Part shown: piece after piece, positions 14,764 through 32,453 of the stretch
Numbering within the stretch: position 1 is the stretch's first letter
Layout of the letters: every line of letters begins with the position of its first letter
Source: Chryseobacterium shigense
GTDB taxonomy: Bacteria > Bacteroidota > Bacteroidia > Flavobacteriales > Weeksellaceae
Assembly (NCBI RefSeq): GCF_900156575.1
Contig: NZ_FTNY01000003.1
Span: 496,001 to 560,000 of the forward strand
Length of the DNA stretch: 64,000 bases
Direction: 5' to 3'
Translations under genes and position numbers: made by a program
Notes under the pieces: generated by a model
Databases searched by the model: none
What the model was told of the DNA's origin: nothing
Seen by the model: the letters and a program-made list of their open reading frames with translations, nothing else

Positions 14764-14771
14764 TCTTGTTT

Positions 14772-15584: not shown

Positions 15585-15594
15585 ATCAAATGGG

Positions 15595-16701: not shown

Positions 16702-18285
16702 TCATATCATTTTCAATCGTTCTTCTTCCAGATCGATTTGATACAATTGCTGTCGGATCACGTCTTCATTAATCGTCACATCTTTATTGAGCTCTGCAAG
16801 ATATTGCCTCTGGACTTCCAGCATTTCAACAAAAATAATTTTATTTTTTTCATTCATCCAGGCGTCTTCATTGGCTTTTGTTTTTTCCTCCCAATGTTTC
16901 AGCATTCTTTCTATTCCCGCATGACCCTGAAGTTCGTTTTCATGCTTTGCTTTAAGGAATTGATAAACATGCTGTTTCAGTTCGTGTTTTATTTTCAGCC
17001 TTGTTGCCTCTTCTTCCTCTTCATTCATAAAATCACGAAATGCATGTCCTTTATTGATGATATAAGGTAGAGTAAGCCCCTGAACCAGTAAGGTCAGCAA
17101 AATGACAACAAATGTGATAAACAGGATCAGATTTCTGTTGGGAAATGGTACTCCATTTTGAAGCGTAATAGGAATAGCAAGCGCTGCAGCCAATGATACC
17201 ACACCACGCATCCCCGTCCAACCCAGAAAAAGGGGCATCAGCAAACTTCTTCTTCTCGTAGACGCTCTTGGAGCCACACTTGGCCGAAAGATATAGGTCG
17301 CGAGCATCGCAGCATATGAACTTATGATCCTTGCCAATATAAGAACAATAGTCACCAATATTCCATATTTAATAGCAGTAGCTAGTGGAATTCCTTCGGA
17401 ACGAAGCCCACCCACAATTTCAGGAAGTTCAAGTCCGATGAGTAAGAAGACAATACCGTTCAGAATAAATACAAAACTTTCCCACACACTATGTCCTTTT
17501 ATTCTGCTCGCACTATTGAGAAAAATCAAACGTCTTGTTGACATAAACAAACCTCCGCATACGACTGCAAGCACTCCGGAACTGTGGAACTGTTCTGCAA
17601 CCCAGTACATTATATATGGCTCTATGAGAGTAAGCGCGATATCCGATGAGGCATCTGTAGGCAAACGTTTGTGTGCCTGCACAAATATCCACCCCAGCAA
17701 CAGACCTATTCCCGCACCTCCGATAACCATCCATAAAAAGCTCAGTGAAGCTTCCTGCCAAACAAATTGCCCTGTCCCCACTGCTATGAGTGCGAAACGG
17801 AAAATAATAAGGGAAGAGGCATCATTCAATAAACTTTCTCCTTCCAGAATCGCAGAAGTGGTTTTCGGGATCTTTACAAATTTCATGATAGCCCCTGTGC
17901 TCACAGCATCGGGCGGAGAGACAATTCCTCCCAGCAAAAAGCCTAAGGCTATCGTAAAACCAGGAATAAAATAATTAGCCGCCACAGCCACGGACAGCGC
18001 TGTAAAAAAGACAACCAAAAAAGCGAAACTGCCTATAATACGCCACCATCTTCTCATCTCCTTGAAAGAAATAGCCCAGGAAGCTTCAAAGAGAAGGGGT
18101 GGTAAAAATATAAAGAAAATAAGATCCGGATCTACTTTTACAATAGGAAGTCCCGGTACAAAGCTTACGAGTAAACCAAATACAACCAATAGGATCGGAT
18201 AAGCAATTTTCAGCTTGGTAGCCCACATATTCAGCAATACGATAGCCGCTATCATTGCCAGAAAAAAAGGTAAAATAGTATGCAT
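16702..18285 (-). CDS. CPA1-family Na+/H+ antiporter
   Basis: A 527-residue inner-membrane antiporter with about 12 hydrophobic segments over residues 1-400. The ion-site signature GGIVSPPDAVSTGAIMKFVKIPKTTSAILEGESLLNDASSLIIF is the CPA1/NhaP hallmark, with the paired acidic residues in PPDA and ND. LGWTGMRGVVSLAAALAIP is the second family motif. The last 120 residues form a soluble, highly charged, probably coiled-coil tail (EEEEEATRLKIKHELKQHVYQFLKAKHENELQ). It exchanges protons for Na+ or K+ for pH and salt homeostasis. The gene is monocistronic and divergent from the accessory island. Confidence 0.93.
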   Translation of the reverse strand: MHTILPFFLAMIAAIVLLNMWATKLKIAYPILLVVFGLLVSFVPGLPIVKVDPDLIFFIFLPPLLFEASWAISFKEMRRWWRIIGSFAFLVVFFTALSVAVAANYFIPGFTIALGFLLGGIVSPPDAVSTGAIMKFVKIPKTTSAILEGESLLNDASSLIIFRFALIAVGTGQFVWQEASLSFLWMVIGGAGIGLLLGWIFVQAHKRLPTDASSDIALTLIEPYIMYWVAEQFHSSGVLAVVCGGLFMSTRRLIFLNSASRIKGHSVWESFVFILNGIVFLLIGLELPEIVGGLRSEGIPLATAIKYGILVTIVLILARIISSYAAMLATYIFRPSVAPRASTRRRSLLMPLFLGWTGMRGVVSLAAALAIPITLQNGVPFPNRNLILFITFVVILLTLLVQGLTLPYIINKGHAFRDFMNEEEEEATRLKIKHELKQHVYQFLKAKHENELQGHAGIERMLKHWEEKTKANEDAWMNEKNKIIFVEMLEVQRQYLAELNKDVTINEDVIRQQLYQIDLEEERLKMI

Positions 18286-18575
18286 TGAAATATTGTGTTT
18301 TTTATCAGTTTCTCATTTAATTTTTCAATATGAATGAGCAAGTTTTTTACAAATATACAGTCAATTGTCTTTTCTTGCACCAATTTTTCTGATCCTATAT
18401 GAACTTAACTTGAAATAATCTCAAAAAAAAATCCATCCATAAATCGCGTGCTTATCGCCTGATCTATCAAATAATCAATCATATTTCATCCCCTGATTAA
18501 ACCATTCTATTCAATAGTAAAAACTGCAATACATTCGCTAAAAACATTATTAATATTTAAAATTTAAATTAAATA
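18286..18575. other. AT-rich spacer between the antiporter gene and the accessory island
   Basis: About 290 nt containing no credible open reading frame, hairpin terminator or repeat. It must hold the antiporter promoter on the minus strand. The first island promoter begins immediately to its right. Confidence 0.6.
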
Positions 18576-18609
18576 CGTCAAGTTTCGTCGCCACTAACGT
18601 ATACTTTTG
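18576..18609 (+). promoter_or_regulatory. Island box 1: WYL-type operator plus -7 element, before the M15 peptidase gene
   Basis: CGTCA-AGTTT-CGTCG at 18576-18590, then 11 nt, then TACTTTTG at 18602-18609. The ATG follows 17 nt later. This is one of five copies with the same internal layout and the same 11-nt spacing. Confidence 0.85.
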
Positions 18610-18626
18610 TGTTATAACAATAAATC

Positions 18627-19127
18627 ATGGATAAAGTAACAATACAAAGAATAGACAAGCTTCACCCTTCTGTAAGAGATGAAGTAAAGCAGATCGTGAA
18701 AGAATGTGATGAAGCCCTCACCGGCAGAGCAAAAATCAGAATTACACAGGGGCTGAGATCTTTTGAAGAACAGGAAAAACTCTATGCCATCGGAAGAATC
18801 ACTTCAGGAAAAAAAGTCACGAATGCTAAAGCCGGGCAAAGTATTCATAATTATGGTCTTGCTGTTGACATCTGCCTGATGATTGATGGAAAAACCGCAA
18901 GTTGGGATACCGTAAAAGACTGGGACAACGATAAAGTAGCGGACTGGTATGAATGTGTCAAGATTTTTGCAAGACATGGCTGGGATTGGGGCGGAAACTG
19001 GAAAACGTTTAAAGACCTTCCCCATTTTGAAAAAAAGAATATTCAGACTCAAAAAGGACTTGTGAAAACGAGCTGGCGAACGTTGTCCAAGATGCCCAGG
19101 GATAAGCAGAATTATATTCTATTTTAA
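18627..19127 (+). CDS. M15-family peptidase, endolysin-like (L-Ala-D-Glu or D-Ala carboxypeptidase)
   Basis: A 166-residue peptidoglycan peptidase. Zinc ligands fit the M15 pattern: H74 and D81 in SIHNYGLAVDI and H133 in DLPHFEK. ITQGLRSFEEQEKLYAIGR near residue 35 is the other family motif. There is no signal peptide, so the enzyme would stay in the cytoplasm unless released, as for phage endolysins of the T5/Ply500 type, which it resembles in size and motif spacing. It opens the accessory island and has its own box promoter. Whether it cuts L-Ala-D-Glu or D-Ala bonds is not decidable by eye. Confidence 0.88.
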   Translation: MDKVTIQRIDKLHPSVRDEVKQIVKECDEALTGRAKIRITQGLRSFEEQEKLYAIGRITSGKKVTNAKAGQSIHNYGLAVDICLMIDGKTASWDTVKDWDNDKVADWYECVKIFARHGWDWGGNWKTFKDLPHFEKKNIQTQKGLVKTSWRTLSKMPRDKQNYILF

Positions 19128-19156
19128 TTCCCTTCTATTTGAAAATAATTATAATA

Positions 19157-19190
19157 CGACGAGTTCTGTCGCTTCCCCGTCCTACCTTTG
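19157..19190 (+). promoter_or_regulatory. Island box 2: operator plus -7 element, before the patatin gene
   Basis: CGACG-AGTTC-TGTCG at 19157-19171, 11 nt, then TACCTTTG at 19183-19190. The coding region starts 128 nt downstream, leaving a long structured leader. Confidence 0.85.
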
Positions 19191-19213
19191 TTTTATAGAA
19201 AAATGTTAGTTAA

Positions 19214-19279
19214 CTGAGATCTCAATACTAAAACCAGCATCCGTATTCAAGGCCGGAATGTTGGTTTTAGTTGTCTCAG
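19214..19279 (+). promoter_or_regulatory. Structured 5' leader of the patatin mRNA
   Basis: Nested inverted repeats: CTGAGA (19214-19219) with TCTCAG (19274-19279); CTAAAACC (19228-19235) with GGTTTTAG (19263-19270), extended by A-T, G-U, C-G, A-T and T-A pairs; and CCG (19241-19243) with CGG (19254-19256). No T-run follows, so it is not a simple terminator. It could control stability or translation. A tiny ORF MLVN at 19203-19217 runs into the first stem. Confidence 0.6.
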
Positions 19280-19317
19280 GACCTTAGATTTTCTTTTAAA
19301 AACCAACAAAACATCAC

Positions 19318-20355
19318 ATGAAAAAGACAACCATTCTTTCTTTGGACGGGGGCGGAATAAGAGGTATTATCACCTGCATTATTCTCCGCTACATAGAGGA
19401 ACAGCTTCAGTATCATGATAATCCGGGCGCTAAACTCGGTGATTATTTTGATCTGGTAGCCGGAAGCAGTACAGGAGGACTGATCGCTTCTATTATTCTA
19501 TGTCCCGATGAACACCGAAAAGCTAAATATTCTATCCAGAAAGGATTAGAATTATATGCTGAAAGGGGCGGCGACATCTTCCAGGTTTCTTTCTGGGAAA
19601 AACTGGTCAATCCGTTTGGCCTGCTTAATGAAAAAATTTCTCAGGAATCACTTGAAAAAAATTTGAATGACTTTTTTGGACACTTAGAACTTAAAGAATT
19701 TATAAAACCATGCTTAATAACCAGTTATGATATTGAAAACAGAAGAGCGAAGCTTTTCAATTCCTGGGAAGCCCACCTGAGCACAGATAATTTTTATGTC
19801 AAAGATATTTGCAGAGCAACTTCGGCAGCGCCTACTTACTTCAGTCCGGTACAGATCAAATCGATGTATGGGCAGATCTTTAGCCTGATAGACGGCGGTA
19901 TGTTTGCCAATAATCCTGCTCTCTGTGCTTATGCTGAGGCGAGAAAAATTCCTTTTGCGGAAGTATTGAAGAATCATCAGAAAGCCAATCATCCCGGCGT
20001 CAACGATATGATTTTTGTTTCTATCGGAACGGGTATTGAGGCGAGACCTTACTCTTTTAGAAAACTTCAAAAATCAGGAAAGATCGGCTGGGTAAATCCC
20101 ATTATTGATATTCTGATGTCTGCCAATGCGGAAACGGTAGATTATCAACTTTCGCAGATGTTCCAGACTTTGGGGCAGAGAAATCAGAAAAATTATTACC
20201 GTCTGAATCCATCATTAAAAAATGCATCTCCCGGCATGGACAATGTCAGAAGATCAAATATCGAAAATCTGATCCAGGCAGGATTGAGTTATATTGATGA
20301 TAACAGGGAAACACTCAATCAAATTGTGCAAAAACTAATCAGAAATAAAATATAA
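19318..20355 (+). CDS. Patatin-like phospholipase (CapV-like)
   Basis: This 345-residue acyl hydrolase belongs to the patatin family. The oxyanion loop is DGGGIRG (residues 10-16), the nucleophile elbow is GSSTG (S51), and the catalytic aspartate is in DGG (D192) followed by MFANNPALCAYAEA. These proteins deacylate phospholipids through a Ser-Asp dyad. Closest by look are CapV effectors of CBASS and bacterial FabD/lysophospholipase-like proteins. There is no signal peptide or membrane segment, so the likely target is the cell's own inner membrane. No nucleotide cyclase gene is nearby, so CBASS is not supported. It is controlled by its own box promoter with a structured leader. Confidence 0.9.
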   Translation: MKKTTILSLDGGGIRGIITCIILRYIEEQLQYHDNPGAKLGDYFDLVAGSSTGGLIASIILCPDEHRKAKYSIQKGLELYAERGGDIFQVSFWEKLVNPFGLLNEKISQESLEKNLNDFFGHLELKEFIKPCLITSYDIENRRAKLFNSWEAHLSTDNFYVKDICRATSAAPTYFSPVQIKSMYGQIFSLIDGGMFANNPALCAYAEARKIPFAEVLKNHQKANHPGVNDMIFVSIGTGIEARPYSFRKLQKSGKIGWVNPIIDILMSANAETVDYQLSQMFQTLGQRNQKNYYRLNPSLKNASPGMDNVRRSNIENLIQAGLSYIDDNRETLNQIVQKLIRNKI

Positions 20356-20429
20356 GCTTTCAACCTTATAATGACTCGATATAAGCTTAAAAGATAATAT
20401 TTAAAAAAGATCAAAAAGTTTTTAAAACA

Positions 20430-20463
20430 CGTCAAGTTTTGTCGCCTTCCGTCACTACTTTTG
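20430..20463 (+). promoter_or_regulatory. Island box 3: operator plus -7 element, before the small acidic protein gene
   Basis: CGTCA-AGTTT-TGTCG at 20430-20444, 11 nt, then TACTTTTG at 20456-20463. Confidence 0.85.
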
Positions 20464-20510
20464 AAGTATAAACAAAGACACAAAAAAACAATCATTAAAA
20501 TTTTAAAAAG

Positions 20511-20562
20511 CCTTTGAATTCAACATTGATCAATGCTGGACAGCCAGAAATATGTTTAAAAC
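20511..20562 (+). repeat. Duplicated leader, copy A, with 8-codon ORF
   Basis: About 50 nt starting CCTTTGAAT recurs at 20855-20907 at the same distance from its own box promoter (48 versus 49 nt). It contains an ORF at 20533-20559 encoding MLDSQKYV and ending TAA. The two copies differ by a one-base indel just before the ATG, so the longer TTG-started frame through this copy is not conserved while the 8-codon frame is. Confidence 0.6.
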
Positions 20563-20588
20563 ATAACCCAAATTCTACAACACCAAAC

Positions 20589-20759
20589 ATGGAAACACCA
20601 GATCACAATCCAGATATTCTTTTCGATGAAGATCTCTATACTATTGAATGGAGCGATATCGAACATGCAGAGATGGACTATGAGAACTATCTCAACGACA
20701 TTGAAAACTTTTTCAGGGAAGATTTCGAAAATGGTATTCCTGAAGAAAATATATACTAA
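20589..20759 (+). CDS. Small strongly acidic protein, unknown function
   Basis: A 56-residue protein from the ATG at 20589: METPDHNPDILFDEDLYTIE..., nearly one third Asp/Glu, with aromatic residues spaced through it (IEWSDIEHAEMDYENYL, IENFFREDF). An upstream TTG at 20514 could extend it by 25 residues, but that part is the non-conserved reading of a duplicated leader, so I prefer the ATG. It has no signal peptide, membrane segment or recognisable family. It is the only coding region between box promoters 3 and 4. A DNA-mimic, inhibitor or assembly-factor role is possible, but this is only inferred from charge. Confidence 0.55.
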   Translation: METPDHNPDILFDEDLYTIEWSDIEHAEMDYENYLNDIENFFREDFENGIPEENIY

Positions 20760-20772
20760 ATACATTCTAACA

Positions 20773-20806
20773 CGACGAGTTCTGACGCTGTCCGGAATTA
20801 TCTTTG
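20773..20806 (+). promoter_or_regulatory. Island box 4: operator plus -7 element, before the fibre-like operon
   Basis: CGACG-AGTTC-TGACG at 20773-20787, 11 nt, then TATCTTTG at 20799-20806. The first long coding region begins 231 nt later. Confidence 0.85.
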
Positions 20807-20854
20807 AAACACCAATCAAGACACCAGACATCATCCCCTAATCATTCAAAAACA

Positions 20855-20907
20855 CCTTTGAATCCATCATTCACAAAATGCCGGACAGCCAGAACTATGT
20901 CTGAAAA
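20855..20907 (+). repeat. Duplicated leader, copy B, with 8-codon ORF
   Basis: Homologous to 20511-20562. It carries an ORF at 20878-20904 encoding MPDSQNYV and ending TGA, against MLDSQKYV and TAA in copy A. The valine codons differ (GTC, GTT) and the stop codons differ in kind but sit at the same place. Between here and 21038 are only tiny frames (for example MKIYPLKFKMKTEGVL at 20929-20979), of doubtful meaning. Confidence 0.6.
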
Positions 20908-21037
20908 TCTATAAAAATGAACAAATATGAAAATATACCCCCTAAAATTTAAGATGAAAACGGAAGGAGTGTTGTAAAAACTCGGCCTTCACCTTATAAC
21001 TATTAATTAACACAAACAAAATCACACTGTTTTTATT

Positions 21038-21670
21038 ATGAAGACAAAACAAGAATTAAGGCTCAAATTCGAGAACGGAGACCAGCCTACACAAGAACAT
21101 TTCTGGGAATGGCAGGACTCTTACTGGCACAAAGATGAAAAGTTAAGCAACAATTCATTGGATTTAGTTACCTATCAAGAGTTTACCCATTCACCAAATG
21201 ACAACACAGAAATTACCGGTACTGACAATATTATCATTTTTCCGGAAGGGATAAAAATTATCGGAGGTTTTAGATTTGCCTTAACCTCACAAAACCGGAT
21301 CACAAAAGTTCAGTTTCCTAAATCCTTGGCAAGGATAAGGTCCGGTGCTTTTGCCGGTCAATATCTCACAGGAACTCTAAGAATTCCAGGATCATGTAAA
21401 GTTATTGAAGCAAATGCTTTCGCCGGTACTGCCAATAATCTTACAGAATTAATACTGGAAAATGGTGTAGAAACGATTGAAGATTTTTCATTTCAGCTTT
21501 CCGGAAGTAAAAATTTAACTGAACTATACATTCCTAAATCTGTTAAATCCGTAGGACAAAATGCATTTAATATTCCATCTCTTACGACGGTATCTGCATC
21601 CAACGGATTGGACTTAAGCAATGCCGGAATTCCGGCAACAGCAGTAATAATGCGCTATGTAGACTTATAA
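21038..21670 (+). CDS. Tagged BspA-type leucine-rich repeat protein, first of three tagged paralogues
   Basis: A 210-residue protein. Residues 1-37 form a tag shared with the next two genes (MKTKQELRLKFENGDQPTQE, then HFWEWQDSYWHKDEK). The rest has BspA/LRR_5-type repeats such as IRSGAFAG, IEANAFAG, ELYIPKSVKSVGQNAF, which build a solenoid often used for protein or sugar binding. There is no signal peptide. Similar short tags ('fenGD.PTQ..FW...dSy.HKDE') are, as I recall, placed at the N-terminus of tail-fibre-like proteins in Bacteroidetes, perhaps to dock them on a larger structure. It starts an operon from box promoter 4. Function inferred, not shown. Confidence 0.78.
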   Translation: MKTKQELRLKFENGDQPTQEHFWEWQDSYWHKDEKLSNNSLDLVTYQEFTHSPNDNTEITGTDNIIIFPEGIKIIGGFRFALTSQNRITKVQFPKSLARIRSGAFAGQYLTGTLRIPGSCKVIEANAFAGTANNLTELILENGVETIEDFSFQLSGSKNLTELYIPKSVKSVGQNAFNIPSLTTVSASNGLDLSNAGIPATAVIMRYVDL

Positions 21671-21677
21671 CATCAAT

Positions 21678-22319
21678 ATGAAAACAAAACAAGAATTAAA
21701 ACTCTACTTTGAAAATGGAGATCAACCTACACAAGAACATTTCTGGGAATGGCAGGACTCTTACTGGCATAAAGATGAGAAAATAGAAATGACCAAAATT
21801 GCGGGTTTGGAAAACGGCTTTCCGCGTTTCAATGACTTTTATGCAGAGATCACTGAAGGAGGAAATGCCTCTCTGGCTCATTTACAGGTCAGAAGGATAT
21901 TCATAAAGCCCGGAACATTGCACATTCCCGATAGGTTTGCAGTTGGAATAGGTATATCCGAATTAACCCTTGCCAGCAGCTTGCTCACTATCGGAGTGGA
22001 TGCTTTCAGCAGCAATGCTTTAAAAACATTAACCATTCCGGAAAATGTGTCAATTATTAGTGAGCGTGCCTTTGCATCTAATCAGCTTACCTTAGTAGTA
22101 ATTCCTGACAGCGTCAAAGAAATTAAAGATTCTGCCTTTAATTCTAACAGAATTAGCGCATTATATATTCCGCCAGGGGTTTTACAGATTGGCCCAAATG
22201 CCTTTAATTATAATCCCGATTTATCTAGCATAAGACTGGACAGAAATACTCAATATTATCCTGATTCATTTGATCCCAAAACAAGAGTTATTGGCGGAAC
22301 TTTAGTCAGCGATATGTAA
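21678..22319 (+). CDS. Tagged BspA-type leucine-rich repeat protein, second of three
   Basis: A 213-residue protein only 7 nt after its paralogue. The first 35 residues repeat the tag almost exactly, and the DNA of this part (about 21678-21782) is close to identical to that at 21038-21142, even at third codon positions, which points to recent duplication or gene conversion. Downstream are LRR_5 repeats (LTIGVDAFSSNALKTLTIPE, IISERAFASNQLTLVVIPDS, LQIGPNAFNY) with different surface residues. Signal peptide absent. The pattern of constant tag and varied repeat body suggests alternative binding specificities on the same docking end. Confidence 0.78.
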   Translation: MKTKQELKLYFENGDQPTQEHFWEWQDSYWHKDEKIEMTKIAGLENGFPRFNDFYAEITEGGNASLAHLQVRRIFIKPGTLHIPDRFAVGIGISELTLASSLLTIGVDAFSSNALKTLTIPENVSIISERAFASNQLTLVVIPDSVKEIKDSAFNSNRISALYIPPGVLQIGPNAFNYNPDLSSIRLDRNTQYYPDSFDPKTRVIGGTLVSDM

Positions 22320-22333
22320 AAAAATACAACAAA

Positions 22334-24619
22334 ATGAAAACAAAACAAGAACTAAAACAATACTTCGAAAACGGGGATATCCCGGTACAGGAAGAATTCT
22401 GGGAATGGCAGAACTCTTACTGGCACAAAGACGAAAAGCTTCCTTTACAAAATATAGATTATGATTTTGATAAAAAAGCAGATGTTAATGCGTCTAACTT
22501 AAGCACACAAAATGCTCAGCTTTGGAAAGATAAAATAGAAACACAGACCTCCATTCAGAATCCTGAATTAAACGGAAATATTTTAACGGTATTTTATACG
22601 GCCGAGAATGGCATTCAACAAAGCAAATCAGTAGATTTAAGCAGTCTGATAACCAATGACATCCACGTTGAAAATGCAGACTACAATGCTTCTCAAAATG
22701 TGATTACAATCACTCAGAATGATGGATCTGTATTTCAAATTAATCTTTCAGAATTCAGTATCATTCCTACGACCAATGCAGACGGAAGTGTGACATTGGC
22801 CCAGGAAGGCCAGGATAAAGTAGTCTTAAAAAAAATTGCCATTTCAGGAAGTTATAATGATTTAACAGATAAGCCTTCTTTCGCAGGTAACGATACATTG
22901 CAAAATGTTATTGACCGAGGCAATACAACCACAAAACCCATTATATTTAATACAGGTCAGGGAAGAGCTGCTGAATTGGGGTTTAATAATACATCCTACT
23001 CTCATTATTTTGGAAATCACAGTAATAATAATTCATCTTATTATACAGTTGCTATTGGATATAATACTTTATCAGCAGTAACGACAGGTCAGTCAAATGT
23101 TGGTATCGGTTCATATGCATTGGAAGCAACTACTACGGGTGCATACAATACCGCTGTTGGAGTAAGCGCAGGACAAAAACTAACCACAGGCCTGTATAAT
23201 ACTTATTTTGGCTGGGCCTCGGGAACTAACTGTACGACAGGCAACTCTAATACAATGCTCGGTAATGAAGCCGGAAACAGAACTACAACCGGTTATAAAA
23301 ATACATTTGTTGGAATGGGCGCCGGTTATTTTAATACGACTGGAAACCTTAATACATTGATAGGCTGGAAAGCCAATAATCAATCCAATTTGGGTGATAA
23401 AAACATTATGATTGGTGTTTCATCCGGCTCGGGAGTTACAGGTAATAATAACGTTCTTATTGGTACCGGAGCAGGAATGAATGACGGAGCAATCGGTAAT
23501 AAATTAATTATTCATGGTAACCAAACATTAACAGGATATTCAAATACTGCTGAGGGAAGTTTTGCAAGCTTCCAGCAAGGTCAATTAAATAGAGCTTTAA
23601 TCACAGGTGATTTTTTAGATCGTTGGGTAAGAATGAATGCTGGATATCTCCAAATTGGATCACCAGCAACAAATGCTGACGATATCACTATCACTCCCAC
23701 ATCAGGAATAACAGCAGCAAAATTATATACCCCGGCAAGTAATAACGATTACGTTCAGCGCGGCTGGATATTCAATAATTACTATAACCAATCTCAAATT
23801 AATTCACTACTGAGCAGAACTTATCATGTAATGGGTTCCGTTGCCAATTTCGGGACTTTACCAACAACAGGCCAAACAGTAGGTGATGTATGGAATTTAC
23901 TGGATACAGGTGAAAACTATGTTTGGGTTGACAATTTGAATAACACCTACATTCCTGGTTGGGATAAACTCTCCGGAATGGTTGATGTTTCAGGTTTCAT
24001 ACCAGTAACAGGCACCGTTACAGGTCAGCCTATAACGGGTGATCTGGTTCTTGACAACACAAATGGAAACAGAGAGATCAAAGGAGCTGTACAGGGATCA
24101 TATATTTCTTTCTTTGATGATGGTCAGATCCAAATAAACAATAAGCCTAATTTCGGCAGTAATGTAACTATTTCTGGTATAGACTTTACCGGAACAGATC
24201 CTGGATCTTCAGGAATGACAGGTGATTACTATTATGGAGATATGTATCAGGACAAATCTTTTATTCAAAAAAAATACGCGGACAAACAGCATTCCTACTC
24301 CACCAAAGAAGAATTAACTGGTGGAACCTGGATCAATGGTAAACCTGTTTATAAAAAAACTGTAGTTTTCACTCAGATTCCAAGAACAGGTCTGGTTGAG
24401 TTCAAAACTGAATTTCCGGATCTTGACACCATTATCTCCAACGAAATGTTTACAGAATGGCATGCAATAGATGCTACATTCGCAGGGAACCAATGGCGAA
24501 CCAAAGCTTACATCACTATAGAAAGAAAGCTGGCGACCATTGAACTTATGGGTGATCCTGACTATGACTACTCTGCCATTGACTCATTTACCCTTACCCT
24601 TGAATACACAAAAAAATAA
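22334..24619 (+). CDS. Tagged tail-fibre-like protein, third of three
   Basis: A 761-residue protein. Residues 1-37 are the same tag as in the two preceding genes (14 nt upstream). Residues 40-190 are beta-rich. About 235-385 carry 20-25-residue repeats of the YadA/adhesin-head kind (NVGIGSYALEATTTGAYNTA, NTMLGNEAGNRTTTGYKNTF, NTLIGWKANN). Next comes a segment typical of phage tail fibres (GSVANFGTLPTTGQTVGDVW... ENYVWVD), and a C-terminal beta domain. There is no signal peptide. The modular plan fits a trimeric fibre or receptor-binding protein. The partner that the tag docks to is not known; the giant protein encoded 22 nt downstream is the obvious candidate. Confidence 0.8.
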   Translation: MKTKQELKQYFENGDIPVQEEFWEWQNSYWHKDEKLPLQNIDYDFDKKADVNASNLSTQNAQLWKDKIETQTSIQNPELNGNILTVFYTAENGIQQSKSVDLSSLITNDIHVENADYNASQNVITITQNDGSVFQINLSEFSIIPTTNADGSVTLAQEGQDKVVLKKIAISGSYNDLTDKPSFAGNDTLQNVIDRGNTTTKPIIFNTGQGRAAELGFNNTSYSHYFGNHSNNNSSYYTVAIGYNTLSAVTTGQSNVGIGSYALEATTTGAYNTAVGVSAGQKLTTGLYNTYFGWASGTNCTTGNSNTMLGNEAGNRTTTGYKNTFVGMGAGYFNTTGNLNTLIGWKANNQSNLGDKNIMIGVSSGSGVTGNNNVLIGTGAGMNDGAIGNKLIIHGNQTLTGYSNTAEGSFASFQQGQLNRALITGDFLDRWVRMNAGYLQIGSPATNADDITITPTSGITAAKLYTPASNNDYVQRGWIFNNYYNQSQINSLLSRTYHVMGSVANFGTLPTTGQTVGDVWNLLDTGENYVWVDNLNNTYIPGWDKLSGMVDVSGFIPVTGTVTGQPITGDLVLDNTNGNREIKGAVQGSYISFFDDGQIQINNKPNFGSNVTISGIDFTGTDPGSSGMTGDYYYGDMYQDKSFIQKKYADKQHSYSTKEELTGGTWINGKPVYKKTVVFTQIPRTGLVEFKTEFPDLDTIISNEMFTEWHAIDATFAGNQWRTKAYITIERKLATIELMGDPDYDYSAIDSFTLTLEYTKK

Positions 24620-24641
24620 ATTATTAAAACAAAATATTAAA

Positions 24642-27600
24642 ATGGCAACAAATAATACACCAATAAAAACCGCATTTACTGTAGGAGGATCCTTAATAGG
24701 AGAAGGTATCATTAATTACAAAGAAACAAATAACATGAACACAACAAACAATGCGTCACAGACGCTTTTCAGATTCGTTAGTTTAAGAAACCCTCAATTA
24801 ACGGAAACTAAAGATAAAAACCTGGGATTTATCCACAGACCCAAAGGGGCAACCGGTATTTTTGACACTGCCGTTGCCGGAAGGCCCGCCAAAACATCCA
24901 AGTTTGGAGAAATGAAGAGAGCAGCCAGCGGATTTAATAATGCAGGATTTGAAACCGAAAAGAAAATTGAAGAAGGAATATTTAAAGATCTCCTTATAGT
25001 AGGACGAAAACTTTCTAAAAGAGAAACATTAGAAAGTAATGACTGGACTTACGTGACAGATTATTACAAAAGTCTTATTGACACCAACAAAAATCTTAAT
25101 CCTGAGGGAATTAAAACGTTTACTCTTCTTTGGAATAACTTTATTTATCAGATCGTTACTCAGGGAGACTTCTACATTAAAGAAGCGATCAGCCATATTC
25201 TGATGGCCATCCAGCTTGGTTTTGCCAACAATCAGGATCTTGCTGATCCGGAAATCATTAAGGTCAATGGCGAAAAACCACTGGAAAAAGCATTAAATAG
25301 TCAGGTTATATTACCAAAATCTCTATTTTCAGAGGACAATTCAGAAACGGTTTCAGCTGGTTCAGCAAGAGCCACGGCAGGTGAAACCAAACCTGTTCTG
25401 GGCGCAAAAACCATCCAAAGATTAGAAGCCGAAGCAAGAGCCTCACTGGTTGTAAACAAAGCAATTCACAGAAGAGACGCTTTGACTAAACTGAATACCG
25501 AACTGGAAAAAATTCAGAAAAAATATCATAAGTCCCGTCATCAATCATACCAGGAAGCTTATTCAAGGTATGTGGATGAAAATAGAGAACGTATGGAAAT
25601 CTATGATAGAAAACTGGCTGAAGTGGAAAGCAAAATCACTCCGGAAACTCCAGAAGAAGAGAAAAAACGTCTATATGACAGCTTAAAGGAATATGAAGTT
25701 CCCTCTTTTGAATTTTCTTTCAGAAATGAAATCGATCTGGAAGATCTAAAAGCAAAACTGTCTCCTGAATCCTTTGACCTTTTTGTTGATCTTTTTGGAG
25801 AATTCAATGCGGGAGAAGTATCTAAAATGGCAGATACCGAAAGTCTTCAGATTCTTTCAGCAGATACCATGAAAATCGGAAATCAGACAATTATCATTGA
25901 TGATGAAATACAAAGCTATTCCGATGCCTTGATCGTGGTACAAAACAATATTTCGTCATCCATGGAGACCGCATTACTGAACAGCCCTCTTCAGCAGCAG
26001 CAGTATGTGAACGTGGGAGGAGCTTCTATTCCGGTGAATCAGAGTACAGCCAGAAACCCAATGGCCTATAGTCTCTATGCGCACAATTCTTTCAGAATGT
26101 CAGGTACAGGAGGCTTCGTTAATTTTTCTTTTGAGGTTGAAGATATTTCATGGAGTGTTGCCAATGCCAAGGTCATTGCCACTACAGACCTTGCCGGATC
26201 TTTTGAAGAAAACTACAGCAATATCCAGGTCGTAGATAATAAAATCACTTTACCGACATGTTTAGTGAATAAGCTACGAAACACTTTTACCTTCAGAATT
26301 GAAATCATTTTTGATAACGGAAGCTTTGCCTATGGAGATATTAGCGAGCAATACATCAAGGAGGATCTAAGTCTTACAGGAATGCTTACCCTGAAACGTG
26401 CCGCCATTGAAAATCCGGGTGAACCTGAACCGGTAACGATCCAGAAACGTAAAAATTTCGGAATCAAAAGACTTGGAGTGGCAGATTATCTGAAAGTTGT
26501 ACAAAGTGTTCACGCCTATGTTCCTGGAGAAGTTTCCAATATTGAGAACGTTATGGCCAGCGAACTAAGACATAAATCTTCTGTTTCAAGAGATTATTCT
26601 GAAATTACGGATACAACTTCCAAATCTCAGGAAACCGAGAAAATTTCCGATACTTCAAAAACATCCAGAACAGATATGCAGACGGAAGTAGCCAAAGAAG
26701 TGGAAAAGCAGCAAAGTATTTCTGCCTATACAAGATTCAGCTATGGGAATGACAATGCTATGAAATTTGAAATCGGTGCAGACTATGCCAATAATACAGC
26801 ACAGCATGACAGTACAAGACAGGCCGTGATGAAGTCTCAGGAAATTACGGAAAGAGCTATGGAAAGAGTTCTTACTAAAATTTCAGAAGAAAGGGTACAG
26901 AAAATCATCAAAGAATATACGGAAACCAATGTGCATGAATTTGACAACAGAGGAAAAGCTCTTACAACCAATCAACCACCACAGCACATCACAGGAGTTT
27001 ACAGATGGATCGATAAGAAAATGAAGAATCAGATCTATAACTATGGTAAACGTACGATGTTTGAATTTATGGTTCCTGAGCCTTCAAGATTACACCGTCT
27101 GGCGCTTACCGTTGCCAAAGCCCAAGTGCTTACCGCTCCTGTAGACCCAAGAAAAGCTCCTGAACCATGGTATATGCCGGATCCTAAATCTGCAAATATT
27201 GAGCAGATACAGCATTGGGCACAGATTTACGGAGTACAGCTGGATGCTTTCCCGGCACCCACTAAACAGGTGATCCATACTGCAGCAAGTGTTCCTCAAA
27301 CCAATGACGATTTTGGAGTAGATTATACCCAGTTTACAATTCCTGATAACTATGCCGGGAAAAATGCAAGCTTCCATTGTGAGGCAGGCCGAAACAGAGG
27401 CGGTGGATTACAGGGATCCCGTTATGCGGAAGTATACTGTTCCAATTTTAATGGTGATTTCGTGGGGCATAATGATCGTGGGGATATTATTTTTGACAGA
27501 GCCTCTTCCGGTTTCAATATAACCGGTAATGTAAGTTTCCAGGTGAAAGGACATAATATCAGACATTATACCGTTAAAGCAACAATCAACTGCGAACTGA

Positions 27601-28460
27601 GTGATGAATTCATCAGCAAATGGAAAACAGAGAGCTTCAATGCGATCATCAAAGCGTATGAAGATGCTTATACAAAATTCCAGGAAGAGCAGACAAGATT
27701 AGATGCAGAGCAGAAAGAAAAAGAGGCACAGCTTAAAGAAAGACAGGATAAGTTCTACCGTTTTATGGAGCATGATGTCTTAAAGCACAACTGTATTGCC
27801 TACCTGCTACAGGATTATCTTAATACCAATACATTAGGACTCGAAACAACAAACGGAGCTGCGGAAAAAACAACAATGGATAACTTCCAGGTATATCTGA
27901 GTGACAATCTGGATAGATATACCGCCCTTGCCAAGTTTATGGAACAGGCCTTCGAATGGGAAATTATGGATTATACCTTCTATCCTTACTACTGGGCCAA
28001 CCGTAAGAGCTGGCAGGAATTTTACCTGAGTGAGAGCATGGACCCATTGTTCAGAAGCTTCTTACAGGCAGGTATGGCAAGAATTATCGTTACCGTAAAA
28101 CCAGGCTTTGAAAATGCTGTACAGTTCTTCATGGAAACAGGAATTATCTGGAATGGCGGTGCTGTTCCGGTCATCGGAGACCCAATGTACATGAGTATCG
28201 TGGATGAAATGAGACAGCCTACAGGAGTAGCACAGGGCAAATACTGGATTACCAAAGTGCCAACTACGCTTACTATTCTTCAGGATAAGTCTACAGGATT
28301 ACCGGTTGAGGAACCTCTTCCAATCTTCCCGGAAACCGATCCGAACAATTGTGAGAATCCTTCGGAACTGGAGACTAAGACGAGTTTCAGGTTGGACAAG
28401 GATGCACAGTTATCACATAGTACTGATCCTACAACGTTACCTACAACAATCGTGGGATAA
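24642..28460 (+). CDS. Giant 1272-residue protein of unknown function
   Basis: The start is the ATG at 24642 (MATNNTPIKTAFTVGG); an earlier in-frame ATG overlaps the previous gene by 80 nt and is unlikely. It has no signal peptide or membrane segment. Residues about 290-380 are helical/coiled-coil, 480-620 beta-rich (FVNFSFEVEDISWSVANAKV). Residues 620-790 hold GVADYLKVVQSVHAYVPGEV, SNIENVMASELRHKS, a Ser/Thr/Glu-rich helix, then YRWIDK (from residue 787) and NYGKRTMFEFMVPEPSRLHR. The C-terminus has ESMDPLFRSFLQAGMARIIV and GGAVPVIGDPMYMSIVDE. I recall large uncharacterised proteins with the same phrases in many phyla, but can name no function. Last gene of the box-4 operon, before a strong terminator. 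Confidence 0.75.
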   Translation: MATNNTPIKTAFTVGGSLIGEGIINYKETNNMNTTNNASQTLFRFVSLRNPQLTETKDKNLGFIHRPKGATGIFDTAVAGRPAKTSKFGEMKRAASGFNNAGFETEKKIEEGIFKDLLIVGRKLSKRETLESNDWTYVTDYYKSLIDTNKNLNPEGIKTFTLLWNNFIYQIVTQGDFYIKEAISHILMAIQLGFANNQDLADPEIIKVNGEKPLEKALNSQVILPKSLFSEDNSETVSAGSARATAGETKPVLGAKTIQRLEAEARASLVVNKAIHRRDALTKLNTELEKIQKKYHKSRHQSYQEAYSRYVDENRERMEIYDRKLAEVESKITPETPEEEKKRLYDSLKEYEVPSFEFSFRNEIDLEDLKAKLSPESFDLFVDLFGEFNAGEVSKMADTESLQILSADTMKIGNQTIIIDDEIQSYSDALIVVQNNISSSMETALLNSPLQQQQYVNVGGASIPVNQSTARNPMAYSLYAHNSFRMSGTGGFVNFSFEVEDISWSVANAKVIATTDLAGSFEENYSNIQVVDNKITLPTCLVNKLRNTFTFRIEIIFDNGSFAYGDISEQYIKEDLSLTGMLTLKRAAIENPGEPEPVTIQKRKNFGIKRLGVADYLKVVQSVHAYVPGEVSNIENVMASELRHKSSVSRDYSEITDTTSKSQETEKISDTSKTSRTDMQTEVAKEVEKQQSISAYTRFSYGNDNAMKFEIGADYANNTAQHDSTRQAVMKSQEITERAMERVLTKISEERVQKIIKEYTETNVHEFDNRGKALTTNQPPQHITGVYRWIDKKMKNQIYNYGKRTMFEFMVPEPSRLHRLALTVAKAQVLTAPVDPRKAPEPWYMPDPKSANIEQIQHWAQIYGVQLDAFPAPTKQVIHTAASVPQTNDDFGVDYTQFTIPDNYAGKNASFHCEAGRNRGGGLQGSRYAEVYCSNFNGDFVGHNDRGDIIFDRASSGFNITGNVSFQVKGHNIRHYTVKATINCELSDEFISKWKTESFNAIIKAYEDAYTKFQEEQTRLDAEQKEKEAQLKERQDKFYRFMEHDVLKHNCIAYLLQDYLNTNTLGLETTNGAAEKTTMDNFQVYLSDNLDRYTALAKFMEQAFEWEIMDYTFYPYYWANRKSWQEFYLSESMDPLFRSFLQAGMARIIVTVKPGFENAVQFFMETGIIWNGGAVPVIGDPMYMSIVDEMRQPTGVAQGKYWITKVPTTLTILQDKSTGLPVEEPLPIFPETDPNNCENPSELETKTSFRLDKDAQLSHSTDPTTLPTTIVG

Positions 28461-28474
28461 TAGATAACCTTAAT

Positions 28475-28504
28475 AGCGGTGTGAAATATCACCGCTGTTT
28501 TTTT
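28475..28504 (+). terminator. Terminator of the fibre/giant-protein operon
   Basis: Stem AGCGGTG (28475-28481) and CACCGCT (28490-28496), 8-nt loop, then G followed by a T-run. It separates the box-4 operon from the metalloprotease pair. Confidence 0.85.
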
Positions 28505-28529
28505 TAAATTTAATCTTAAAAAACTCAAA

Positions 28530-30479
28530 ATGAAAAATATAGATATTAGAAATCTGGCAAGCATTGGAGTGGCTGATGTGGATGTTTATAAGACTGATAG
28601 GCGAAAAAATTCTAATTTTAAACTTGAAGGCGATGTATATTTTTGTCGTTCAACAACGAATGTTGATGATAAATTAGGTTTAGAAGATTCTGCGTATACT
28701 GGACAATTTGGTTTTGATAAATATAATGCAGATCATTGCCCCACTGGAAGTATAATTTATTATAAAGACAAAGAAGGAAAACCAATTGAAAGTAAACAAC
28801 ATACAGGTTATACCTGCGCATATCTAAGCATTTGGCCTCCTACAATAAATAAACAAAAAAGCACTTTCCTTCTATATGTCAAAACCCTAAATAATAACGA
28901 TGTTCCTGAACTATTAGAATATCATTGTAAAGAATGGAATGAAGATAGTAAATCTTTTACACGGGAAACTGACAAATTAAAAGTAATAAAAGAAAATACT
29001 CAAACTATTAATGATAAAAAATATTATAAAATAAGAATAGAATGTCTAAAGCCTTTCGAAAAGGATATAAGTATTGAGGCAAAATACGATGGTAAAACTG
29101 TAGGTAGATTAATTGCAAAAGCTAATTCAAAAGTATATGAGACAACGATACAACCTGTTCTTGTTACTTTTGGCTCACAAGCATCTACCAAAGTTGAAGA
29201 GAAAGAGCACAAAGATTTTGATTTTATTCCGAAATTAATTGAATTTTTTAATAATCAAGCATTTAATCAAGCCTATATTAGAGGAAAGCTTGCAAAAAAT
29301 ACCCATGTAGTACAATTCGTAGAAAGTGATTTTACGAAAGATGATGTAGTGAAAATGAAAGGGAAAAAATTGTTCATTAATTATACTGAAGCTAGCCAAA
29401 GAAATGCAATACTATATAATGATCTAATTGAAAATAAGTACTCTGCTTTATTTTATAATTCAATTAAGATTAGGGAAAATATTGAAAAAATGCATGATTG
29501 TATAAAAAAAATACTTATTGCATTCAAGAAAGATTTTAAGTATGATAAAGAATCTAATTTAAGAAAAGCAAAGAAATTTCATGAGGATCATACTGCAACC
29601 ATTGCCTGGAATAAAGTAAAAGATAATTTATATAAAGAATATTTAGAATATAAATCTGAGTATTTACAAAATAAAATTGTACATCTTGATCAAAATAACA
29701 TCATTTATGTATTCATTAATACATCCATTGAAGGTGGCAAAAACGAAGATGCTAAAACTCAGGCATATTCTTATCGGAGCTCGGGAGTTACACATATATT
29801 TAATAGCGCAATAAAAGATCAAGATGGACTTGCATTGGTTGTGCATGAAATAGGGCATTCTCTTGGCTTACCTCATACTTTCGAAGACGATATAAAAAAG
29901 GATATCAACAATTTAAATACATTAACTGATCGGAAAAAAGCTGAATTAGATGAATTAAATAATGTAAAAGCTGAATTAAGAAAATACTTCCCACTGGATA
30001 GCAAATATCGTGTTATACAATCTATTATTGAATCATCCGAAAAATCTCTTGTTGGAATTGAATTTTTTGAAAAAAGATTTCTAGTGAATATTATCGGAGA
30101 AAGTTCTTATCTAAATGAAAAATCAGAATTGATAACGGACAAAAAAACGTCAGTAATCGAGCTTGAAAGTATATCTTTACCTGATTTCGATGTAGAAAAC
30201 ACAAAAAAAAAGGTGCAAAAAGATATAAGAGATTACGCAAATCAAATTGCAAAAAAAATACCTTATATTGATATAACAAAAGAACAGAGTGAAACTTTAG
30301 AAAATATAATGGATTATAGACAATATGCTACGCCCCAAGACACCAGTACTCCAGAAGATGGGAAGCCAAACTTTAATAGAAATTTTAAATACAAATCGTT
30401 TTATCAATGGCAGTGGAAAAAAATGCTAGAAGAGTCAACAAATAATAATTATATTAGTCAAATAATAAATAAAGAATGA
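28530..30479 (+). CDS. Metzincin-type zinc metalloprotease, candidate toxin/effector
   Basis: A 649-residue protein with the extended zinc motif HEIGHSLGLPH at residues 439-449 and a Met-turn NIMDYR around M594, which together define a metzincin. The approximately 145 residues between them are lysine-rich and probably helical, longer than usual. The N-terminal 220 residues look like beta domains (FGFDKYNADHCPTGSIIYYK, STFLLYVKTLNNNDVPELLE). No signal peptide. The DNA is visibly more AT-rich and lysine/asparagine-rich than the neighbouring genes, which suggests separate acquisition. It follows a terminator with no island box, and its stop overlaps the next start by 4 nt. Effector function is an inference from context. 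Confidence 0.72.
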   Translation: MKNIDIRNLASIGVADVDVYKTDRRKNSNFKLEGDVYFCRSTTNVDDKLGLEDSAYTGQFGFDKYNADHCPTGSIIYYKDKEGKPIESKQHTGYTCAYLSIWPPTINKQKSTFLLYVKTLNNNDVPELLEYHCKEWNEDSKSFTRETDKLKVIKENTQTINDKKYYKIRIECLKPFEKDISIEAKYDGKTVGRLIAKANSKVYETTIQPVLVTFGSQASTKVEEKEHKDFDFIPKLIEFFNNQAFNQAYIRGKLAKNTHVVQFVESDFTKDDVVKMKGKKLFINYTEASQRNAILYNDLIENKYSALFYNSIKIRENIEKMHDCIKKILIAFKKDFKYDKESNLRKAKKFHEDHTATIAWNKVKDNLYKEYLEYKSEYLQNKIVHLDQNNIIYVFINTSIEGGKNEDAKTQAYSYRSSGVTHIFNSAIKDQDGLALVVHEIGHSLGLPHTFEDDIKKDINNLNTLTDRKKAELDELNNVKAELRKYFPLDSKYRVIQSIIESSEKSLVGIEFFEKRFLVNIIGESSYLNEKSELITDKKTSVIELESISLPDFDVENTKKKVQKDIRDYANQIAKKIPYIDITKEQSETLENIMDYRQYATPQDTSTPEDGKPNFNRNFKYKSFYQWQWKKMLEESTNNNYISQIINKE

Positions 30480-31381
30480 AAAATGTTATTTTTTTATTAA
30501 GTCTATTCGCACTCAATTTGTTTTGTGCTCAAGAACTTTTGGAGAAGTTTGAACAAGATGGAAAAATTGGTTTAAAACATCAAAATAAAATCGTATTGCC
30601 TCCCGTATATGATATGATTTTAACTAATATTTTAATTGTAACAAGTAAGGCAAATGAAAAAAACATTTATGATCAGAACTTGTCTTTACTGTATAAAAAT
30701 ACAGACTTTGTAGCTACTTCTTATTCCGAAGAGTTTGACATTTTACAGATTATTCTAAAAGATGGAAGCATGAAGAGTTACACATGGAATGGCATACTTA
30801 ATGATTATTCTAAATTGATCCCAAAAAAAGAATCAACCGAATCATACAAAGAAAGCAGAGATGATCATGGTAGCAAAACTTATATAATTGAAAAAGGGGC
30901 AATTAAAGAAGAATTCAATAATATCTTAAGTAATCCTGAAGATGAACTTATACATATAAAATATAGCATTAATGGAAAAGATGCTGTTTTTTTAAACAAT
31001 GCCAAAAAATTAGAAATCGAATATACTCAGAAGAGAAAAGGTCACTCTAATGACAAAATTATTGATTATGGATATAGTGAAGAGATTTTATTTAATCCTT
31101 TAAAAATACAATATATAATTTCAAAACAAGGGAGCAAGTATGGAGTTTGGGATTTTAAAGAAAGAAAAATGATACTCCCTTTTGAATATAAAAAAATTAT
31201 TTCATATCAAAATTACCTTAATTTAGAAAAAAACGGTTTGTATACCTATTATCCAAACATTGGTATGGAACCAAAGTACAAAAAATTAGAGCCCTACATT
31301 GGAAATTTCGCCAGATTTGAAACACCGGATGGTAAAAAAGGTTGGGTAGACAGAAAAGGAAAAGAATATTTTGACCAGTAA
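30476..31381 (+). CDS. Exported WG-repeat protein coupled to the metalloprotease, candidate immunity protein
   Basis: A 301-residue protein with a signal peptide (MKNVIFLLSLFALNLFCAQ). WG-type repeats follow: FEQDGKIGLKHQNKIVLPPVYD at the N-terminus, SKYGVWDFKERKMILPFEYKKI and KKGWVDRKGKEYF at the C-terminus. WG-repeat proteins are beta solenoids involved in binding. The ATG overlaps the protease stop (ATGA, 30476-30479), so translation is coupled. A cytoplasmic protease followed by an exported binding protein is a layout seen in effector/immunity pairs, with the second protein guarding the periplasm. Equally AT-rich as the protease gene. Ends at a strong terminator. Confidence 0.65.
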   Translation: MKNVIFLLSLFALNLFCAQELLEKFEQDGKIGLKHQNKIVLPPVYDMILTNILIVTSKANEKNIYDQNLSLLYKNTDFVATSYSEEFDILQIILKDGSMKSYTWNGILNDYSKLIPKKESTESYKESRDDHGSKTYIIEKGAIKEEFNNILSNPEDELIHIKYSINGKDAVFLNNAKKLEIEYTQKRKGHSNDKIIDYGYSEEILFNPLKIQYIISKQGSKYGVWDFKERKMILPFEYKKIISYQNYLNLEKNGLYTYYPNIGMEPKYKKLEPYIGNFARFETPDGKKGWVDRKGKEYFDQ

Positions 31382-31385
31382 TTAG

Positions 31386-31416
31386 TAAGCCACAGAAAAC
31401 TGTGGCTTATTTTTTC
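31386..31416 (+). terminator. Terminator after the protease/WG pair
   Basis: Perfect 10-bp stem TAAGCCACAG (31386-31395) and CTGTGGCTTA (31400-31409), 4-nt loop, then a T-run. Confidence 0.92.
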
Positions 31417-31443
31417 TTTTAAAAAAATATAAAAAATAAAACA

Positions 31444-31532: not shown

Positions 31533-32453
31533 ATGAAAAAAGATTTTTATCTGACAAGATATGCCTTAATTATCAAAAGATTAGAAAGTTCTCCGGCTAC
31601 CTATTCCCAGCTGGAGGACTATCTTCTTAACTCTTTCGAATTTCAGGATGCCGGGATCAAGAGCTATTCGATCCGTACGCTGCAGAGGGATATTCGGGAG
31701 ATTTCCGATCTTTTTAATCTTTCCATTCACAACAAAAAGAAGGGTGACAACCGTTATTATATTGAAAGCCGCCCCATCATGGAAGTAGATGAATACAATC
31801 AGAAATTACTGGAATCTTTTCAGGTAAGCAACGCATTAAATCTTCATCCGGATTTTTCAGATTTTATCTTTTTTGAAAGCAGAAAACCCACTGGGATCGA
31901 GCACTTCTATGATCTTTTCTTCGCGATCCGTAACAAGAGAGTCGTAAGCTTTGAGCACTACAACTACAAAAACAAAATAATGACTTCGCGAAAAGTGCAT
32001 CCTCTGGCATTAAAGGAATCCAAAGACCGATGGTACCTCATCGCGATTGACACCAAAGACAAGGTGCTGAAATCATTTGGTTTGGACAGAGTCAATTATC
32101 TGGATGTGAGCGACAACAAATTCCGTGAAAAGTATAATTACAATTTCAGGGAACATTTCAAAAATGCTTTCGGCGTTATGAATCTGGCGGAGCAGAAACC
32201 ACAGAATATTGTCATGAAATGCAGCAGACATCAGGGCGAATACATCCGAAGTTTTCCGCTGCACCAGTCTCAGAAAGAAACGAAAGAAACTCCTGAAGAG
32301 ATCTATTTTGAGTTCTTCTTACACCCTACCTATGACTTTATGCAGGAGATTCTCTCTTACGGAAAAGAAGTCACTGTTCTGGAACCTAAATGTTTAGTTG
32401 ATGATATCCGCACTCATCTCCAGGAGTCTCTGAACCGCTATCTGGAAAGCTGA
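31533..32453 (+). CDS. WYL-domain transcriptional regulator, presumed controller of the island
   Basis: This 306-residue regulator starts with a winged helix-turn-helix (YALIIKRLESSPATYSQLED to IRTLQRDIREISDLFNL, residues 8-65). The WYL domain follows (FAIRNKRVVSFEHYN, RKVHPLALKESKDRWYLIA with WYL at 167-169, KSFGLDRVNYLDV), then a C-terminal WCX-like extension (FEFFLHPTYDFMQEILSYGKEVTVLEP). WYL proteins such as BrxR and CapW repress phage-defence genes, and Caulobacter DriD activates genes after binding single-stranded DNA; ligand binding lies in the WYL fold. Here the gene has the best copy of the palindromic box found at four other island promoters, so it is the natural candidate to bind it. 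Sign of regulation (activation or repression) is unknown. Confidence 0.9.
   Translation: MKKDFYLTRYALIIKRLESSPATYSQLEDYLLNSFEFQDAGIKSYSIRTLQRDIREISDLFNLSIHNKKKGDNRYYIESRPIMEVDEYNQKLLESFQVSNALNLHPDFSDFIFFESRKPTGIEHFYDLFFAIRNKRVVSFEHYNYKNKIMTSRKVHPLALKESKDRWYLIAIDTKDKVLKSFGLDRVNYLDVSDNKFREKYNYNFREHFKNAFGVMNLAEQKPQNIVMKCSRHQGEYIRSFPLHQSQKETKETPEEIYFEFFLHPTYDFMQEILSYGKEVTVLEPKCLVDDIRTHLQESLNRYLES

Follow-up and report, generated by a model that had tools for sequence, protein, structure and literature searches.

Contractile injection systems (CIS) are known as sheath-and-tube syringes. In this paper we compare the fibres of such systems with a gene array of Chryseobacterium shigense (assembly GCF_900156575.1), in which three tandem genes share an N-terminal segment, hereafter the tag, and stand directly upstream of a gene for a 1272-residue protein, hereafter the giant. 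Unless a locus is named, coordinates are those of the window, the whole 64,000-nt stretch of contig NZ_FTNY01000003.1 that was analysed. In the CIS of Anabaena, amino-terminal domains of Cis13 (All3316) bind the baseplate, and they do so as a trimer (PMC8894136). For the Photorhabdus virulence cassette (PVC), only truncation of the N-terminal domain of Pvc13 removed the fibre from the particles (PMC10097599). A 2026 catalogue of fibres from extracellular CIS (eCIS) defines the N-terminal baseplate anchor domains eBAP1-5; eBAP1 and eBAP2 are helical and about 50 residues long, and eBAP2 is also found in Bacteroidota (PMC12923769). The accessible part of the AlgoCIS paper (PMC8894135) contributed nothing bearing on the tag.

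Our preferred explanation, to which we give a probability of about 0.55, is that the tag is a docking plug of the kind found on CIS and phage fibres. It would be a short helical hairpin of the Cis13 type, by which a variable body that binds the target is fitted into a structural particle, and in this operon it would have moved off the contractile machines. The tagged leucine-rich repeat (LRR) and tailspike-like proteins would serve as exchangeable binders, docked on the giant or assembled together with it. The giant in turn would carry a toxin-like cargo, the product of the gene just downstream, kept in check by an immunity protein. If this is true, targeting can be separated from injection, with arrays of docking plugs standing outside any syringe and often linked to a giant of unknown fold and to polymorphic toxin-like genes; the locus may thus represent a novel type of toxin carrier. 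Both elements are widespread among the 173 genomes of the genus, the tag being found in 147 (E-value 0.01 or better) and the giant in 141. The array is laid out as follows.

21038..21148, + strand: tag copy 1 (residues 1-37 of gene 1), from the tag search of the own genome
21149..21670, + strand: body of gene 1, BspA-type leucine-rich repeats (LRR_5, E 1.3e-17)
21678..21788, + strand: tag copy 2 (gene 2), with predicted helices at residues 4-12 and 19-30, then a linker at 32-52
21789..22319, + strand: body of gene 2, BspA-type leucine-rich repeats (LRR_5, E 4e-19)
22334..22444, + strand: tag copy 3 (gene 3), from the tag search of the own genome
22445..24619, + strand: body of gene 3, a fibre resembling tailspike and virion-structural proteins (phrog_6002, E 1.7e-17; phrog_4636, E 5e-17)
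24642..28460, + strand: giant, 1272 residues, candidate scaffold or carrier
28530..30479, + strand: zincin-like cargo candidate with HEIGHSLGLPH at residue 439 (Reprolysin_5, E 1.4e-5, below the cut-off)
30476..31381, + strand: candidate immunity protein whose start is hydrophobic and resembles a signal peptide (sub-threshold WG-repeat match)

The operon on the + strand thus runs from two tagged LRR genes (210 and 213 residues) through the tagged fibre gene (761 residues), the giant and the cargo candidate to the gene for the signal-peptide-like protein. The gaps measure 7, 14, 22 and 69 bp, followed by a 4-nt overlap; the ATG of the giant, at 24642, lies 22 bp past the end of gene 3.

The initial annotation had described an N-terminus common to the three tandem genes, and a search of the own genome with the tag of gene 2 recovers all three, with identities of 100, 92 and 83% (E 8.6e-22 for the query itself, 6.5e-20 and 4.5e-17). 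These matches are far above chance. A fourth copy (75% identity, E 1.5e-14) lies 138 kb away beside a second giant of 1389 residues, which has one tagged LRR-like gene of 430 residues directly upstream (L039 928-6444). The tag occupies residues 1-36 of each of the three genes. When 45 tagged proteins are aligned, most of them of LRR type and a few not, 14 of its positions are invariant, against a mean column identity of 18% over the whole alignment. The fold model of gene 2 has a mean predicted local distance difference test score (pLDDT) of 83 and places a helix at residues 4-12, a turn, a helix at 19-30 and then a confident LRR part; the linker at 32-52 is of low confidence, and the tag itself reaches a pLDDT of only 64-69.

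A broad profile built from 32 tags was searched against 177,635 PDB sequences. Its best match is All3316 itself (7b5h, E 1.1e-4), of which residues 1-37 align to nearly the whole profile. The next matches are AfpX13 (E 0.015), a tail fiber protein (0.022) and an 'Adenoviral fiber protein' (0.074, residues 26-65). Cis13 differs from the proteins of this locus in that it belongs to a full, thylakoid-anchored CIS and ends in a helical membrane anchor, and no giant is reported alongside it in the accessible part of its description (PMC8894136). The tag also resembles eBAP1 and eBAP2, which are likewise N-terminal and constant before very diverse bodies, are about 50 residues long and are helical, as the tag is predicted to be, loci with several fibres being on record; this likeness is by description only, and the eBAP fibres come from eCIS loci whereas the window locus has no eCIS (PMC12923769, as far as the catalogue was accessible). 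A third counterpart is found in Winoviridae phages (fF4, lotta8-1 and FPSV-S1), whose tag-like N-termini match at E 3e-6 to 4e-3, but which carry a single such gene per phage with 38-54% identity to the giant-linked tag.

The contexts in which the tag occurs point in the same direction. In samples of the phylum, with the window's genome and the genus counted, the narrow tag profile matched 16 of 296 genomes and the broad one 26 of 395. Among 19 regions around tags from the first of these samples, eight carry a gene of phage family phrog_38413 close to the tag, on its downstream side in L184 and upstream of it in the other seven. The sheath candidates scanned in L184 and L195 match the tail-sheath family. 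Two further regions, L201 and L202 from another Bacteroidota family, are eCIS-like by gene order; in L202 the tag gene comes right after a Baseplate_J gene, and the scanned proteins also match the T4 gp19 tube, Phage_base_V and AAA families. Two regions carry the giant (L197 and L199), five have the tag beside other large proteins of 1361-2086 residues (L185, L187, L190, L193 and L200), and in two no structural neighbour is evident (L188 and L189). Tag-like N-termini are also present in Flavobacterium phages of the fF4, lotta8-1 and FPSV types. In lotta8-1 the protein bears the label 'structural protein', and in FPSV-S1 a few genes separate it from the tape measure gene, which precedes it; its neighbours in fF4 are mostly labelled hypothetical. 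By eye, the giant-linked tags differ as a type from the phage tags.

Of the functions considered for the shared N-terminus, docking has the best support, because of the homology with the baseplate-binding part of Cis13, the phage tail contexts and the position after Baseplate_J in the eCIS-type cluster. The docking tag proposed by the initial annotation is upheld on the same grounds. That proposal would have fallen had tags in other genomes never been near a relative of the giant or any structural gene; tags lie near giants, phage tail genes and eCIS genes. A sorting or secretion signal could also be short, constant and N-terminal on diverse bodies, as the tag is. We consider this function improbable: the N-termini of the window's three tagged proteins have no hydrophobic stretch, the tag is similar to a baseplate-binding domain, and the motif recurs in phage tail proteins.

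The variety of bodies agrees with what had been predicted, namely different modules on one tag. In the window two bodies are BspA-type LRR proteins by LRR_5 and one is tailspike-like by PHROG, the Pfam scan of the gene 3 body being without a match. Across 108 tagged proteins the constant tag stands N-terminal to variable bodies, with LRR_5 in 57, virion-structural PHROG matches in 26, tailspike PHROG matches in 22 and Peptidase_M14 in two; these counts overlap, and other bodies occur as well. One tagged protein of 1775 residues was left out of this set (A5). In L047, L087, L110 and L112 the tag starts up to about 45 residues in, where the true start is perhaps later.

At the DNA level, the tags of genes 1 and 2 are less alike than the initial annotation stated in calling them almost identical. 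They differ at 17 of 111 nt, and at 13 of the first 105 (87.6% identity), with one identical run of 44 nt (codon-shuffle P 0.003), and identity is only 15% in the 60 nt past the tag. The encoded tags are 94% identical over 35 residues and the bodies 32%. The suggestion of gene conversion fared better. A relative of gene 2 (L080) has a body 93% identical and a tag only 82% identical, and the tags of the two LRR body classes share 88.5% of nucleotides within a locus (11 pairs) versus 82.3% between loci (564 pairs), an excess reached by none of 5000 label shuffles; at third codon positions the values are 78% versus 68%. For pairs of LRR and fibre tags, identity within and between loci is 79.6 vs 72.9% (P 0.0002) and 78.8 vs 73.5% (P 0.0012). 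The shuffles model neither relatedness nor codon bias, and 11 of 109 tagged proteins fell outside every body class in this comparison. The likeness of tags within a locus is supported as a pattern that gene conversion or tag shuffling would give, although this is tempered by the fibre-type genes, 42 of 50 of which have their nearest tag in a fibre gene of another locus.

The association of tags with the giant is the second pillar of our explanation. A tag was called strong at E 1e-10 or better in the genus search, and the strong-tag genomes were picked by eye; the giant is present in 83 of these 84 genomes versus 58 of the 89 others (Fisher P 1.1e-9). The 32 genus genomes without the giant comprise 20 that were listed and 12 inferred from their absence in the list. 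For the 69 genomes whose first tag place is among the matches listed, a giant was sought up to 10 kb from that tag; 63 have one, again among the matches listed, at a distance of no more than 4.1 kb. The six misses are two genomes with giants on other contigs, three with giants outside the matches listed and one with the giant 2 Mb away. In the fetched loci, 123 matches with repeats and fragments were reduced to 99 distinct giants of at least 1100 residues, three of them without an upstream gene in the fetched stretch; 54 of the 99 are directly preceded by tagged genes, between one and five of them. The giant was also found in 16 of 395 genomes of the phylum sample, in 14 of them with the same gene order. 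The claim that the giant is the one scaffold for the tags stands as far as linkage goes, in 63 of the 69 genomes and 54 of the 99 giants, and its role as scaffold is kept here as a candidate one. From linkage and gene order we infer the giant as docking partner of the tags, which is the simplest reading. Gene order also suggests delivery of a toxin. On this scheme the giant would provide the socket, the assembly would be released from the cell and the cargo would be delivered to competitors.

Several observations weigh against our preferred explanation. The narrow tag profile has AfpX13 (E 0.076) and a tail fiber (0.11) as its top two PDB matches, with 7b5h not listed, and phmmer with the tag protein of L202 gave no match. 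The fold model of the giant is weak (pLDDT 64, predicted template modelling score 0.48) and yields no socket and no fold to build on. Forty-five of the 99 distinct giants have no tagged gene directly upstream, and in genome G140, which has no giant match, the hotspot described below holds three tagged genes, each of about 200 residues. Tagged genes stand downstream of the cargo in seven loci (L052, L054, L056, L057, L091, L131 and L241), and tags also adjoin other large proteins dissimilar to the giant. Finally, the sheath model PF04984 matches eight of 34 chosen genus genomes, four of them over the cut-off, and five of the eight (G050, G055, G067, G075 and G146) also have the giant and strong tags, so that tags there could serve a real CIS.

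The first of these points raises the question whether the likeness to CIS fibres is chance, or a convergent helical hairpin with no common function. The tag is short at 37 residues, and only one PDB match of the broad profile falls below E 0.01, in addition to the modest narrow-profile value. But all of the first four matches are fibre-type by name or known CIS fibres and are matched near their N-termini, and many tag contexts are tail loci. We regard chance as the least probable of all the alternatives considered.

Several of the remaining points bear on our main rival to the giant as partner, a prophage or CIS elsewhere in the genome. Under this alternative the tagged genes would be spare or alternative fibres for such a machine, parked at a hotspot, with the giant a mere neighbour. 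The same tag family does occur in phages and in an eCIS-type cluster, tags occur without the giant and giants without tags, and five genomes with the giant and tags also have a sheath match. Two IMG/VR contigs carry the giant beside the same hotspot genes, and phage-tail-like genes (by eye) lie on the opposite strand a few kb from this M15-patatin-giant hotspot (L203 1-4454 and L204 1-4865). But PF04984 finds no match in the window's genome, a model that may miss divergent sheaths, and the matches among chosen genomes are few. In the usual order, as in the window, the tags directly precede the giant and share its strand, with known exceptions, and by eye the giant-linked tags are of another type than the phage tags. 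We judge the spare-fibre explanation unlikely, though it deserves to be taken seriously. No sheath, tube or baseplate family was found by the Pfam scan among the ten proteins of 16702-32453. Among the loci with sheath matches in the genus, three look eCIS-like by eye (L235-L237); they have three sheath-type genes each and lie apart from the giant locus.

That 54 giants are tagged and 45 are untagged suggests that the tags are an optional module. The distant tag-less giants of L239, L240 and L245 keep a cargo-like gene downstream, and giant plus cargo therefore looks like the core to which tags were added. L241 has two tagged genes, both downstream, and L242, from another genus of the family, has one upstream.

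The genes downstream of the giant show the constant N-terminus and variable C-terminus of polymorphic toxin systems. There are 145 distinct genes of at least 250 residues, the WYL flank included. Five N-terminal families comprise 21 genes in 11 C-terminal clusters, 20 in 5, 15 in 9, 12 in 8 and 7 in 3, and the WYL genes, as a control, comprise 18 in a single cluster; the family of 12 genes could encode fibres instead of cargo. The N-terminus of the window's cargo candidate is common to other downstream genes, and three relatives of its family keep the HExxHxxGxxH motif. Tox-MPTase4 is above the cut-off at the C-terminus of one of ten scanned proteins (L053). EndoU is just below it in two, one downstream of the giant in L240 and the other a hotspot gene of L073, upstream of the giant between M15 and patatin. 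Among three small downstream proteins of relatives, two match SUKH-1 above the cut-off, only just in L241; the small gene of L239 is similar to the SUKH-type ones but has no convincing Pfam match of its own. With polymorphic toxin systems, as far as their description was accessible (PMC3482391), the giant loci share the constant N-terminus and variable C-terminus; the known toxin domain in one relative and the SUKH-1 immunity-type genes in two would agree with such a system. They differ from it in that the cargo is separate from a candidate carrier without a family match, and in that the binding modules are separate tagged proteins. Repeated short cassettes, toxin-like and immunity-like by eye, lie downstream of the giant in L204 (17990-23257) and, again by eye, resemble the orphan-cassette arrays of polymorphic toxins.

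A more specific form of our explanation is that the giant forms the core of a non-contractile, sheath-less particle, with a CIS plug, changeable LRR or tailspike binders and a swappable toxin with its immunity gene, the plug being a socket standard across particle types. We offer it tentatively, as somewhat less than an even bet. Its last element is prompted by a second type of locus in the genus, where proteins of about 2060-2280 residues stand beside three to six tagged genes. These proteins are dissimilar to the giant and accompany tandem tagged genes in L187 (1130-13940), L229, L233 (7276-19880) and L234. The tagged proteins there start MAKKTI, L233 also has an M15 peptidase, and the 2086-residue protein of this second locus type has no match in a Pfam scan.

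The identity of the giant was pursued by several routes. In C. carnipullorum its best-matching segment reaches 97% identity. It has no match in Pfam, PHROG, NCBIfam or PADLOC and is absent from a phage collection of 50,697 records, and neither it nor the tag array is named in the titles or abstract starts of the open-licence papers listed. Candidate relatives in the PDB were rejected both by sequence (best E 0.4) and by fold, where Foldseek gave a best E of 1.1e-3 and VIA-align a Z of at most 8.3, with rows mostly within model stretch 835-952. BFVD gave 12 matches at E 0.001 or better. A tail protein of a Caulobacter phage heads them (E 2.7e-6), but was given no weight because its root-mean-square deviation is 76 over 631 columns. 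A relation to baseplate proteins was set aside as well: an unfiltered hidden Markov model of the giant, run against the open reading frames of phage, eCIS-type and other-giant regions, recovered two known giants. Beyond these, the top match was a 370-residue protein of L232, a phage-like tag locus; at E 0.0026 and 11 bits it scores little better than WYL genes, which are unrelated (E 0.009). A pore-forming hairpin at residues of about 640-760 was likewise dropped, the hydrophobic moments there not standing out.

The array lies at a hotspot flanked by M15 peptidase, patatin and WYL genes.

18627..19127, + strand: M15 peptidase, endolysin-like, left flank (Peptidase_M15_4, E 1.2e-19; PHROG endolysin, E 5e-30)
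19318..20355, + strand: patatin-like phospholipase, left flank (Pfam scan)
31533..32453, + strand: WYL-domain regulator, right flank (Pfam scan)

The window's patatin matches PADLOC phospholipase effector models (E 4.9e-60), and no CD-NTase was found among its Pfam-scanned neighbours. A setting of this kind, beside a WYL gene and an effector-like patatin, could suit tags that are decoys, filling the fibre sockets of incoming or induced phages with bodies that do not function and so blocking adsorption or assembly, with giant and cargo a separate toxin system. Tag homologues in Flavobacterium phages also fit. But identity to the phage tags is only 38-54%, many bodies have binding-type folds that a decoy would not need, and the tags are mostly next to the giant; we hold decoys to be highly improbable.

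Patatin and the M15 peptidase were discarded as required parts of the system, both being found at sites without the giant. Of 36 chosen genomes 34 have patatin, and of the 20 among them that lack a giant match 18 have it; the peptidase is present at the empty sites L215, L216 and L221. Among 14 patatin regions without the giant, four (the same three and L223) have WYL next to patatin or almost so, and nine have a three-gene cassette, the first gene of which is DUF2589 (scanned in L225 only); L224 differs from the other 13. The cassette (L225 5097-6984; also in L061, L075, L217-L220, L222, L226-L228 and L241) stands instead of, or beside, the giant locus at the patatin-WYL hotspot. Further to the left in the window, at 13852-16455 on the - strand, are three related tandem genes of 303, 270 and 286 residues, which also occur close to the hotspot in four of the first 38 regions fetched.

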